Positions 688 through 4,131 of a stretch of 8,880 nucleotides of DNA are shown here, piece by piece. Positions within the stretch are counted from its first letter, which is position 1, and every line of letters begins with the position of its first letter. The stretch comes from Pyrodictiaceae archaeon (GTDB lineage: Archaea; Thermoproteota; Thermoprotei_A; Sulfolobales; Pyrodictiaceae), in NCBI GenBank assembly GCA_027046105.1, contig JALTZQ010000236.1, forward strand, positions 1-8,880, in the 5' to 3' direction. Position numbers and translations under genes: made by a program. The notes below the pieces were generated by a model. The model searched no databases. It saw nothing but the letters and a program-made list of their open reading frames with translations, and was not told the origin of the DNA.

Positions 688-2151
688 CTAGTTTGGTGTA
701 TACAGCATTGAGAGATAGGCAACGACTTTATCCTTCATTGGTATAGCCATATAGAAACACTTATTGTTGAATACAGCTACGTTTGTTCCAAGATTAATAT
801 CGATATAGGCTAGTCCATAGAGATCTTCCTTAGCCATGAACAACACTAGCGGCACTAACGATAATTCCTTGGCACCAGCATACTTGACTAGGATACTACC
901 CACTGGCAACAAAAGACCATTCGGCTCGAACCTCACTCTTTTCGCACAGTCTGCTAACGTCACTCTCACACTAGTCCCGCGTTCACTATAATAGGTCTTG
1001 TTGAGGCCTATGGAGGTGTTTACCCAGACAAGTTCAGCAAGGCCACGTCCATCAACAGTATTATCTACTTGCACCACTGGTTCAAGACGCATTAAGCTAT
1101 CCATGTATGGTAAAGCTTGAACAATATAGACCCTACTTAGTAGTTCGGTTCCAGAAAAGACCGCATCTTCGTAAATTGTCTTTTCTAGGGCTAGGCCTGC
1201 AACCCATATCCTTCCAGTGAATCCAGTTAAAACGAAAAACTCCTCACCAATACTTGTTACTGTGAACTCCCCTCCCCCATACTTGCAATACGAATCTTTA
1301 CCAGTAGTTGCTTTGTAGAATACACAGTGAAGATCAAGAAAGATGCGGACCCATGGATATTTCATTTCGTAGCCTTCTTGTAGAAAACTTACCTCAGTAT
1401 ATCCATCACGGACTTTCACTATAGTCGTACCTAGCCTAAGCTCGTCCGTTGCCAAGTAGATGTCATGCACAAACTTATCTATGAGGCTGCCTATTTCCCT
1501 CCTAATATAGCTATCAATTACTGGTATGGGTTCTTTACTAGTAACCAACCCCCATTCATAGGTCCAACGAAGACAGTATATGCTTTCATTAAGCGATACA
1601 CATGTTGGCCAAGGCTTAGCAACTAGTTTAGCACTACGTTCATACATAAGAGGCTCATTATTATTAACTCCTATAGTTACATAGATGCTTGTTCCCTCTA
1701 ATAGTTTGTCTACACGTAGAGGAACCGGAACTACACCAGAATACAATTCTACCATGTCATCTCTCTCTAGCGCTGCCACATAGAACAGCAAAATAGCAAC
1801 ACGACTATCCAGGGGGAGGCCTTGCTGACGAAGCACTGTGTATAAGTGCTCAACGTAGCCTTGTAAATCTAGTGATGCCATACCATATCCGCTAAGACGG
1901 CCTATAACCATTGGCGCTTCTGGAGCTACGCCTATAGCGAGAACCGTAAACGCAGCTAGGTCTTCACCTACAAAGATACGTAGGTTCAACTTGCTAGCTC
2001 CATCCACTATATAGGTTACGACTGTACTACTGCTGAGTTGCTCCACACTGGTGACAATGCTCGTATAGAGCATATGTACAAGGGTGGGTACTGCAATTAC
2101 TACTAGTAGTATGGGAGCTAGGATCGATACTAGCCTCAAACGAGATCCCAA
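688..2151 (-). CDS. Membrane-anchored hypothetical protein with a large extracytoplasmic domain
   Basis: This 487-residue protein is not recognised. Residues 1-6 are basic (MGSRLR) and residues 7-32 form one strongly hydrophobic helix ending near a Tyr-Thr-Ser stretch, typical of a signal anchor or uncleaved signal peptide. The remaining ~450 residues lack further membrane helices and look beta-rich, so the bulk probably lies outside the cell. It has six cysteines, all in the presumed external part and roughly paired in sequence (184/193, 276/289, 402/465), consistent with disulphides. There are three N-glycosylation sequons (N188, N378, N384). The start is TTG at 2151. A TATA box about 30 bases upstream and no clear Shine-Dalgarno site suggest a leaderless or nearly leaderless mRNA. 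No enzymatic motif was seen. Confidence 0.82.
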   Translation of the reverse strand: MGSRLRLVSILAPILLVVIAVPTLVHMLYTSIVTSVEQLSSSTVVTYIVDGASKLNLRIFVGEDLAAFTVLAIGVAPEAPMVIGRLSGYGMASLDLQGYVEHLYTVLRQQGLPLDSRVAILLFYVAALERDDMVELYSGVVPVPLRVDKLLEGTSIYVTIGVNNNEPLMYERSAKLVAKPWPTCVSLNESIYCLRWTYEWGLVTSKEPIPVIDSYIRREIGSLIDKFVHDIYLATDELRLGTTIVKVRDGYTEVSFLQEGYEMKYPWVRIFLDLHCVFYKATTGKDSYCKYGGGEFTVTSIGEEFFVLTGFTGRIWVAGLALEKTIYEDAVFSGTELLSRVYIVQALPYMDSLMRLEPVVQVDNTVDGRGLAELVWVNTSIGLNKTYYSERGTSVRVTLADCAKRVRFEPNGLLLPVGSILVKYAGAKELSLVPLVLFMAKEDLYGLAYIDINLGTNVAVFNNKCFYMAIPMKDKVVAYLSMLYTPN

Positions 2152-2240: not shown

Positions 2241-2310
2241 GTGCTCAGATACGCGGGGCAGCATTCTTCATAACATGTGTTTTCTGACCGTGGTCCTCTC
2301 ATCACTGCAC
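2241..2310 (-). ncRNA. Box C/D sRNA candidate (2'-O-methylation guide) overlapping the ligase stop codon
   Basis: Read on the minus strand, the elements in order are as follows. A 5' stem strand GTGC is at 2310-2307, followed by A at 2306. Box C, GTGATGA, is at 2305-2299. A 12-base guide follows at 2298-2287, then a D'-like box CAGA at 2286-2283. An 11-base spacer precedes a C'-like box ATGAAGA at 2271-2265. A 16-base guide (2264-2249) leads to a perfect box D, CTGA, at 2248-2245, and the 3' stem strand GCAC is at 2244-2241. GTGC and GCAC pair perfectly. Counting A-G-U as the three-base bulge before the tandem sheared G-A pairs gives the canonical kink-turn bound by L7Ae. By the D+5 rule the guides would direct methylation of a G (opposite C2253) and a U (opposite A2291); I could not assign the targets. 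D' and C' each differ from consensus by one base, and the 16-base guide is slightly long. The ligase TGA stop (2304-2302) lies inside box C. Confidence 0.7.
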
Positions 2311-4131
2311 AGTCTTCGTTTCCTCCTTTATCTTTCGTAGCTGTCTCTTATACATCTCGTATAGCTCTTTGGTTGTTGTAGCATCTTCTGGACTTTTATC
2401 TGGTCTCCATCTTATAAATCTTGGGAATCTTATTGATATACCAGCACCTGGCTTAGCCCAACCATAGCAACATGTATGTATTGGGCTTAATGTAAGTTCG
2501 GCACCAATTATCTCTGCCACTAGTGCTGGTTCAACCCATACATCAGGCTTCATTGTGCTATCTACTCTTGGTGGCTTCTTGTCACGTATATAGGGTTTTA
2601 GGAGTTCATCCATTCTTTCAAGGTCTTCGTCGGTAAATCCGCTACCAACCTTACATACGCTCTTGAATGTATCGGTGTCTGGGTCGTAGGCTGCCATTAA
2701 GAGCGTTCCTATTTTGCCGCCACGCCTACCCTTACCGTAAAACCCACCTATGACAACAAGGTCTACTGTGTCAGCCATTTCGCTCTTGTAGTCCCTCTTG
2801 TATTTTATCCATAACCATCCTCTTGCACCCGCTTGATAAATACTTCTATCGTGTATAGCTTTAGCCATTATACCCTCTGCGCCATCCTCTATGGCTTTAA
2901 GGAAGAACTTCTCAAGATCCTCTGCTCTATCTGTTACCATGCCCTCAGCTAGTCTCCATTTATCATTTTGCGCAATGGCTTCTTCTAGGTGGCGGCGCCG
3001 TACTAGTAGGGGTTCAACAGTAAGGTCCTTACCATCACGATATAGTATGTCAAATAGGAAAACAGCAACTGGGATCTCCTTCATAACTGTATGGATATCG
3101 TGTTTTCTTCTACGATGCATTAGTACTTGGAATGGTCTTAGCTCACCTGTGTCTGGGTCTATTGCAACAATTTCTCCTTCAACGATAGCCTCGTCTGCTT
3201 TTATGTGGTTCTTAGCTAATTCTACCACATCCGGATAGGCGTGTGTAATGTTTTCGAGTCTCCGGGAATAAATGATTATTTTATCGCCTTTCTTGTGTAT
3301 TTGGGCTCTCTCACCATCATACTTATACTCGGCTAGTGCACGACCACCTAGTTTACGTAGGATCTCCTCTGGATCACTTAGCCTCTCAGCAAGCATAGGT
3401 CTTATTGGAATCCCTACCTCCGGTTTTACTTTCTTAAGAGAGTCAACACCCTGCGTCGCCAAAATCTTCGCTATCATTCCAAGATCGGCCCTTAGGTTAT
3501 ATGCTCTTTCAACAATTTGTTTCATTGCAGCACTACCTGCATAAACTACGGCAAGTGCTTCCATGATTGTTGCATCACCTACACCTAGGCGAAGCCTACC
3601 TTCAATAAAACGTGCTATATACTTGGCCTCACGTGGATCAGCATCACTAAGTAGGCTGGCTAATAGCTTAAGCTTTGCATCCCTACTACCCTCACCAGTA
3701 GCCATAGCTATTCGTGCTAATGTTTCATAGACTTTCTCAACAGTTAGCTTTTCACCTGTCTTTTGCTGCTGGCCCGGGATAAACGCTAGCAAACCCACTG
3801 GCTTACCACGCTTTGACTCTAGCTCTCTCTTTAGCCTCTCTACAACAGTACCTATGTCGCCATACCTCTTTGCCAGACTTTCGATTCTGGATTCCGACAC
3901 TTGTAGTGCTATTGACGCTGCTTTTATCAATAACTTTTCTCCTACACCAAGCTCTGGCAGCCCTTTCCAATCTGGCCATAGCTTTCCCTGAAGAAAATAC
4001 ACTACCCTGTCTATAGTCTCTGGTGGTGTCTTCTTAAACAAGTCTACAAGGTAAAGCAACATTTGGGTGCGTGATGTTGTTCTCTCCAGACGTTCAAAGG
4101 TTTCCACCAGAATGGAGAAAGGCATTGGCAA
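2302..4131 (-). CDS. lig: ATP-dependent DNA ligase (archaeal type)
   Basis: This enzyme seals nicks in double-stranded DNA during Okazaki fragment joining and repair, through ligase-adenylate and DNA-adenylate intermediates. The 609-residue length is normal for archaeal LigI-like enzymes. An N-terminal helical DNA-binding domain (about 1-235) is followed by the adenylation domain. Motif I is KYDGER at 270-275, with K270 as the AMP-accepting lysine. VEGEIVAID (about 317-325), DGAEGIMAK (416-424) and WIKYKRDY (441-448) are the other nucleotidyltransferase motifs. The C-terminal OB-fold includes the RFPRFIRWRPDK stretch (568-579). All key residues are intact. The start is TTG at 4131: AGGGTG at 4145-4140 lies 8 bases upstream, whereas ATG at codon 3 would be 14 bases away. 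Relatives in Desulfurococcales can use other nucleotide cofactors besides ATP; that cannot be read here. The stop codon lies in box C of the downstream sRNA. Confidence 0.98.
   Translation of the reverse strand: MPMPFSILVETFERLERTTSRTQMLLYLVDLFKKTPPETIDRVVYFLQGKLWPDWKGLPELGVGEKLLIKAASIALQVSESRIESLAKRYGDIGTVVERLKRELESKRGKPVGLLAFIPGQQQKTGEKLTVEKVYETLARIAMATGEGSRDAKLKLLASLLSDADPREAKYIARFIEGRLRLGVGDATIMEALAVVYAGSAAMKQIVERAYNLRADLGMIAKILATQGVDSLKKVKPEVGIPIRPMLAERLSDPEEILRKLGGRALAEYKYDGERAQIHKKGDKIIIYSRRLENITHAYPDVVELAKNHIKADEAIVEGEIVAIDPDTGELRPFQVLMHRRRKHDIHTVMKEIPVAVFLFDILYRDGKDLTVEPLLVRRRHLEEAIAQNDKWRLAEGMVTDRAEDLEKFFLKAIEDGAEGIMAKAIHDRSIYQAGARGWLWIKYKRDYKSEMADTVDLVVIGGFYGKGRRGGKIGTLLMAAYDPDTDTFKSVCKVGSGFTDEDLERMDELLKPYIRDKKPPRVDSTMKPDVWVEPALVAEIIGAELTLSPIHTCCYGWAKPGAGISIRFPRFIRWRPDKSPEDATTTKELYEMYKRQLRKIKEETKTVQ

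Follow-up and report, generated by a model that had tools for sequence, protein, structure and literature searches.

In the general pathway of archaeal box C/D sRNAs, L7Ae binds two k-turns, after which Nop5 and fibrillarin assemble, and both guides are typically spaced by about 12 nt. According to excerpts of the review PMC7994747, 25% of C/D genes overlap the 3´ end of an ORF, almost half of those with the stop codon in box C, and reporter tests of such 3´ overlaps gave neutral or slightly negative effects (Tripp et al. 2017, reported in PMC7994747). The same excerpts describe tRNA-targeting sRNAs, which have one targeting guide and another guide without a target.

The window analysed here is the whole stretch of 8,880 nucleotides from a heat-loving Pyrodictiaceae archaeon (contig JALTZQ010000236.1). 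On its minus strand, every part of an archaeal box C/D sRNA can be read directly at 2310-2241, which confirms the existence of the element that an earlier sequence-only reading had placed there. The GTGATGA and CTGA boxes, the GTGC/GCAC stem, the D´-like CAGA and the C´-like ATGAAGA are all present, as is the proposed three-base k-turn bulge, in which A-G-T separates the stem from the GA of box C. The TGA of the ligase ORF (2304-2302) likewise forms bases 2-4 of box C, as that reading had stated. The features are as follows.

2302..4131, minus strand: ATP-dependent DNA ligase gene, the neighbour upstream of the sRNA (Pfam, NCBIfam TIGR00574)
2241..2310, minus strand: box C/D sRNA gene of the predicted tRNA-Pro guide family (boxes and stem read; aligned with 14 relatives)
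2307..2310, minus strand: 5´ arm of the terminal stem, GTGC (read directly)
2306, minus strand: single A between stem and box C (read directly)
2299..2305, minus strand: box C, GTGATGA (read directly)
2302..2304, minus strand: ligase stop codon TGA within box C (sequence and ORF end)
2287..2298, minus strand: D´ guide, GAGGACCACGGT, 12 nt (read directly)
2288..2296, minus strand: D´ guide core, GGACCACGG, complement of CCGUGGUCC in the tRNA-Pro of relatives (sequence comparison)
2283..2286, minus strand: box D´, CAGA (read directly; identical CAGA in G009)
2272..2282, minus strand: D´-C´ spacer (read directly)
2265..2271, minus strand: box C´, ATGAAGA (read directly)
2249..2264, minus strand: D guide region, ATGCTGCCCCGCGTAT, 16 nt, diverged from the CCCYGCATCG of relatives (alignment)
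2245..2248, minus strand: box D, CTGA (read directly)
2241..2244, minus strand: 3´ arm of the terminal stem, GCAC (read directly)

The D´ guide of the window is thus 12 nt long and the D guide region 16 nt. By eye, the corresponding C´-to-D spacer measures 12 nt in G004, G009 and G052, 13 nt in G050 and 14 nt in G049, and the D´-C´ loop, which reads AAC-ACAT-GTT in the window, forms a hairpin rich in G and C in several relatives. A grammar that combines RTGATGA, CTGA, an exact 4-bp stem and the inner boxes was scanned on both strands; it matched once in the window, at 2310-2241, and never in 400 dinucleotide-shuffled windows. A chance or decayed C/D-like sequence that yields no RNA product would agree with the CAGA at box D´, which is one base off the CTGA consensus, with the drifted D guide and with an Rfam search of the window element that returned only C/D families below the gathering score. 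The shuffles, the exact stem and a D´ guide that keeps the family core unchanged in the alignment with 14 relatives argue against this explanation, which we regard as highly improbable.

The boxes, whose conservation the sequence-only reading had proposed to check, are conserved in relatives in the form of a box C/D sRNA, though mostly not behind the ligase. A sequence model (R1) was built from six members and matched 19 of 20 Pyrodictiaceae genomes at E ≤ 1. Members were counted at E ≤ 2.2e-4 where box C, a guide resembling GGACCACG and a D-like box could all be read, which gave members in 14 of the 20 genomes, nine of the 14 being absent from the model that found them. Box D´ is poor in three of the counted members (G005, G007 and G012). 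Among the six genomes without a counted member, the G053 match is weak (E 0.0072, 16 bits) and lacks a good box C, the G015 match (E 2.4e-5) covers the D half only and goes with a different D´ guide, G001, G013 and G014 score E 0.02 or worse, and the R1 search gave no match in G008. G001 was also among the six of 18 genomes that matched an initial pattern search; its locus (L086) fits that pattern without a D half and was dropped as a chance match. When the best-pairing D-like box was taken for each of 15 aligned members, the terminal stem has at least 3 bp in 12 of them and 1 or 2 bp in G004, G006 and G012. The stem sequences differ among members (GTGC/GCAC, GGGG/CCCC, GGGT/ACCC and CGGGGC/GCCCCG).

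Beyond the family, a second model (R2) matched 27 genomes outside the 14 at E ≤ 0.01. Sixteen of the matched loci were read, of which six are clear, three are partial (G066, G078 and G087) and seven show the D half only or nothing. Six more Desulfurococcales genomes carry the guide core GGACCACGG together with a C box and a CTGA box D´; in these genomes the core reads CGGACCACGG or GGGACCACGG and is followed by a later D box. The D guides differ among these six genomes, with GCAT kept in four of them, which makes the predicted tRNA guide the better conserved half.

The position behind the ligase is confined to the window and G003 among the aligned members, and the stop codon lies within box C in the window only. 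The ligase of G003 (L003) has TAG as its stop codon, which lies four bases ahead of box C. The longest ORF per locus within 1.4 kb of the sRNA was compared, and no ligase ORF was found in the 13 other aligned relatives as far as the loci reach. With the ligase as query, 80 loci were fetched from related genomes; the same D´ guide directly follows the ligase in one of 21 ligase 3´ ends read (L003). In eight relatives, G006 among them, a type II methionyl aminopeptidase gene lies downstream of the sRNA. The same sRNA is therefore found with different host genes, two carriers having it behind the ligase and eight ahead of methionyl aminopeptidase, in keeping with the idea that such sRNA genes settle wherever transcription is available.

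These comparisons bear on the claim that the stop codon in box C is notable and could couple the ending of the ligase mRNA to sRNA maturation. Regulation of the ligase, in which L7Ae binding or processing at box C competes with translation termination or generates the 3´ end of the mRNA, could draw on the bases that stop codon and box C share. However, the arrangement is not conserved, as the TAG of G003 precedes the box and in eight relatives the sRNA stands ahead of the aminopeptidase gene, and the excerpts of PMC7994747 call such overlaps common, with little effect in reporters. The coupling is therefore unsupported, and we hold such regulation to be hardly credible. The stop-codon arrangement is of an ordinary, already described kind, and most likely the overlap does no more than supply the sRNA with a host transcript.

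Several other features of these neighbourhoods were recorded. An AsnC-like gene (the two copies were judged alike by visual comparison and from a weak NCBIfam match that they share) follows the sRNA in L003, and in the window it comes after an extra 487-aa ORF (688-2151, minus strand) that has no Pfam or NCBIfam match and for which there is no room in L003. A 5S rRNA gene oriented oppositely to the sRNA follows it closely in two loci, at 1671-1790 (minus strand) of L085 from G006 and at 1698-1817 (minus strand) of L083 from G009. A different C/D-like RNA stands just behind the ligase in ten other loci (L001, L004-L011 and L013), and the same second family occurs on the opposite strand ahead of the ligase in L020, L033, L035, L054 and L066; nine of these fifteen were searched against Rfam and gave no match at that place. 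One guide of this second family, TACCCGGCAAG, pairs over 11 bp with 23S near 2130 in G049 and G052 and also fits a 10-bp 16S site near 750; the other has an 8-bp match in 23S near 2097, in the same two genomes.

The D´ guide is predicted from its complementarity to direct 2´-O-methylation of U44 in tRNA-Pro. Four genomes were searched for the D´ complement with the pattern YCGTGGTCCN, and, in G052 as in G006, flanks were read for 18 of the 19 hits, the sRNA's own being left out. The search led to tRNA-Pro(UGG) and tRNA-Pro(CGG) in G052 and to tRNA-Pro(CGG) in G006. The paired stretch, CCGUGGUCC, corresponds to positions 41-49 of tRNA-Pro, and the base at N+5 is U44 (numbered by hand). Against 47 tRNA sequences, mostly from G006, the longest Watson-Crick run of the window's D´ guide is 9, all in tRNA-Pro. 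Of 2000 shuffled guides, 77 equal this 9-bp run within the same set.

In 20 of 21 genomes, the organism's own tRNA-Pro pairs with its D´ guide over an unbroken 8-11 bp that include N+5, an agreement that is not independent across genomes because guide and tRNA are both inherited. The tRNA-Pro loci were hand-picked and then filtered for a CCGTG-like motif, which dropped G066 and the GGG isoacceptor; the 21 genomes include G053, G078 and G087, whose sRNAs are partial, and exclude the window and G004, so that the complementarity is one seen in relatives. With G072, which fits, and G066, which does not, both read by eye, the count becomes 21 of 23. G066 had been considered as a matched change of guide and tRNA; N2 pairs and N3 is mismatched, and it was counted as a miss. 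In G005, where a single tRNA-Pro was retrieved, its pairing with the D´ guide extends over 5 bp. Core changes that keep the pairing through G-U are GGATCACGG in G002 and G009 and GGGCCACGG in G007 and G010. In G053, CCGTGATCC in the tRNA-Pro is accompanied by GGGTCACGG in the best family hit, a matched change that is suggestive of guide and tRNA having altered together. The target is absent from tRNA-Pro(GGG), which reads CCGGTGATCC in G004 and G006 and CCGGTGGTCC in G007 and G010. If this assignment is correct, the tRNA-Pro of the source organism itself would be expected to carry CCGTGGTCC.

Ribosomal RNA was considered as an alternative target of the D´ guide. In the 16S and 23S of four relatives, the longest D´ run that pairs at N+5 is 7, with one G-U. 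The 16S stretch TCCCTGCTCCTT, identical in the four Pyrodictiaceae 16S read, was rejected as a D´ target with two C-C mismatches remaining; a 16S core motif was also sought in viral contigs and not found there. A complete LSU in L088 (G008) was dropped from the set, as it aligns to the G006 LSU at 74-83% in pieces and is probably foreign; a tRNA-like stretch lies in front of it, and the contig is probably a foreign one in a MAG. One rRNA candidate is 23S near 162, where 11 of 12 bases of the window's D´ guide pair (one G-U) in G049 and G050 and where one difference in the source organism's 23S would complete the match. However, the mismatch falls exactly on the N+5 base, the own D´ guides of G049, G050, G052 and G053 mismatch at the same base and pair less well, and 16 to 27 of 500 shuffled guides reach the quality of this site in a given relative. 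In addition, the conserved core N2-N10 is exactly the part that pairs with tRNA-Pro. Action of the window's D´ guide on 23S near 162 instead of tRNA-Pro is therefore very unlikely.

The tRNA-Pro(UGG) gene of G006 (L137) is interrupted within the predicted guide target by an insert of 33 nt, which separates U44 exactly from G45. The insert folds with a hairpin of its own and is read as an intron. Direct tRNA scans of G006 had overlooked the target, as one tRNA-Pro is split by the insert and another is absent from the tRNA list. Because the insert splits the target, the latter is present in this tRNA only after splicing; among the tRNA-Pro genes read, this was seen in G006 only. The cut of tRNA splicing uses the 2´-OH, and methylation of U44 at an earlier stage should block it. 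The guide might thus enforce an order of tRNA maturation, with methylation of U44 following splicing by way of the split target, a suggestion that we put forward tentatively and regard as less likely than not. If true, Um44 of tRNA-Pro would be a modification placed by a guide, and the split target would hold it back until splicing is complete.

The two guides fare differently in the complementarity that the sequence-only reading had sought in rRNA and tRNA: the D´ guide has the conserved tRNA match, but the D guide has no convincing target in the window. In relatives, the D guide is mostly CCCYGCATCG, and in the window it is CCCCGCGTAT, with a longer spacer. The relatives' form pairs over 9 bp (0 or 1 G-U) with 16S CGATGCGGG in G049, G050 and G052, and its variable positions often face G in UGUAAACGAUGCGGG, where (by eye) they would be tolerated; this site is presumably near E. 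coli 810. The window's D guide has a 10-bp candidate (one G-U) in 23S near 1024 in four relatives, with further candidates at 23S 439 in G052 (10 bp) and at about 16S 72 in G053. These pairings would favour a D half that is active in the window too, on 16S or 23S rRNA, with both arms working. In contrast, 20 to 51% of shuffled relatives' D guides pair equally well somewhere in 16S/23S, 12 to 28% of shuffled window D guides do equally well in rRNA, in G050 and G052 the 16S site is equalled by one in 23S near 1050, the 23S candidates of the window leave the three bases adjoining box D unpaired, and the window's spacer is 16 nt. We consider an active D half in the window unlikely. The D half of relatives could fit a 16S site, at a level of pairing not beyond chance, and that of the window has drifted and looks degenerate.

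Taken together, we find it probable that the element is an archaeal box C/D sRNA whose D´ guide acts on U44 of tRNA-Pro and whose D half is degenerate in the window. The sRNA would be transcribed with the ligase and is probably released by processing from the 3´ end of the ligase transcript. L7Ae would bind the two k-turns of the sRNA, and Nop5 and fibrillarin would then assemble. The D´ guide would base-pair with nucleotides 41-49 of tRNA-Pro, and U44, which faces the guide nucleotide five positions ahead of box D´, would receive the 2´-O-methyl group. The D half may derive from a form able to pair with 16S at UGUAAACGAUGCGGG. The useful result is the tRNA-Pro guide family, not the stop-codon arrangement: a conserved archaeal guide is given a concrete, testable tRNA target.

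Compared with described systems, the element shares the general C/D shape of the Rfam families sR14 (RF01145), sR43 (RF01128) and snoPyro_CD (RF00095), and a CCACGGUC stretch of the sR43 consensus is common with the window's D´ end. All matches to these families are below gathering; the window scores 13.5 of 38 bits (sR14) and 14.1 of 45, and L332 scores 30.6 of 45. The 3´-overlapping C/D sRNA genes in the excerpts of PMC7994747 likewise extend over the terminus of the ORF upstream, whose stop codon falls in box C. The present case is of the same kind and differs only in having a DNA ligase as its ORF and in lacking conservation. No guide to tRNA-Pro position 44 is named in the titles or abstract openings of the literature listing, the excerpts of PMC7668247 list none of their tRNA guide sites there, and those of PMC6313347 do not mention Um44 or position 44. 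The closest likeness is to the tRNA-targeting C/D sRNAs described in excerpts of PMC7994747 and PMC7668247 (sR50 in the tRNA-Trp intron, the tRNA-Met and tRNA-Leu guides, and Pyrobaculum families), which likewise carry one tRNA guide; as in those of PMC7994747, the second guide of the window seems to be without a target. The difference lies in the site, which in the excerpted accounts of those guides falls at positions such as 34, 39, 18, 47 and 50 and is here predicted at U44 of tRNA-Pro.
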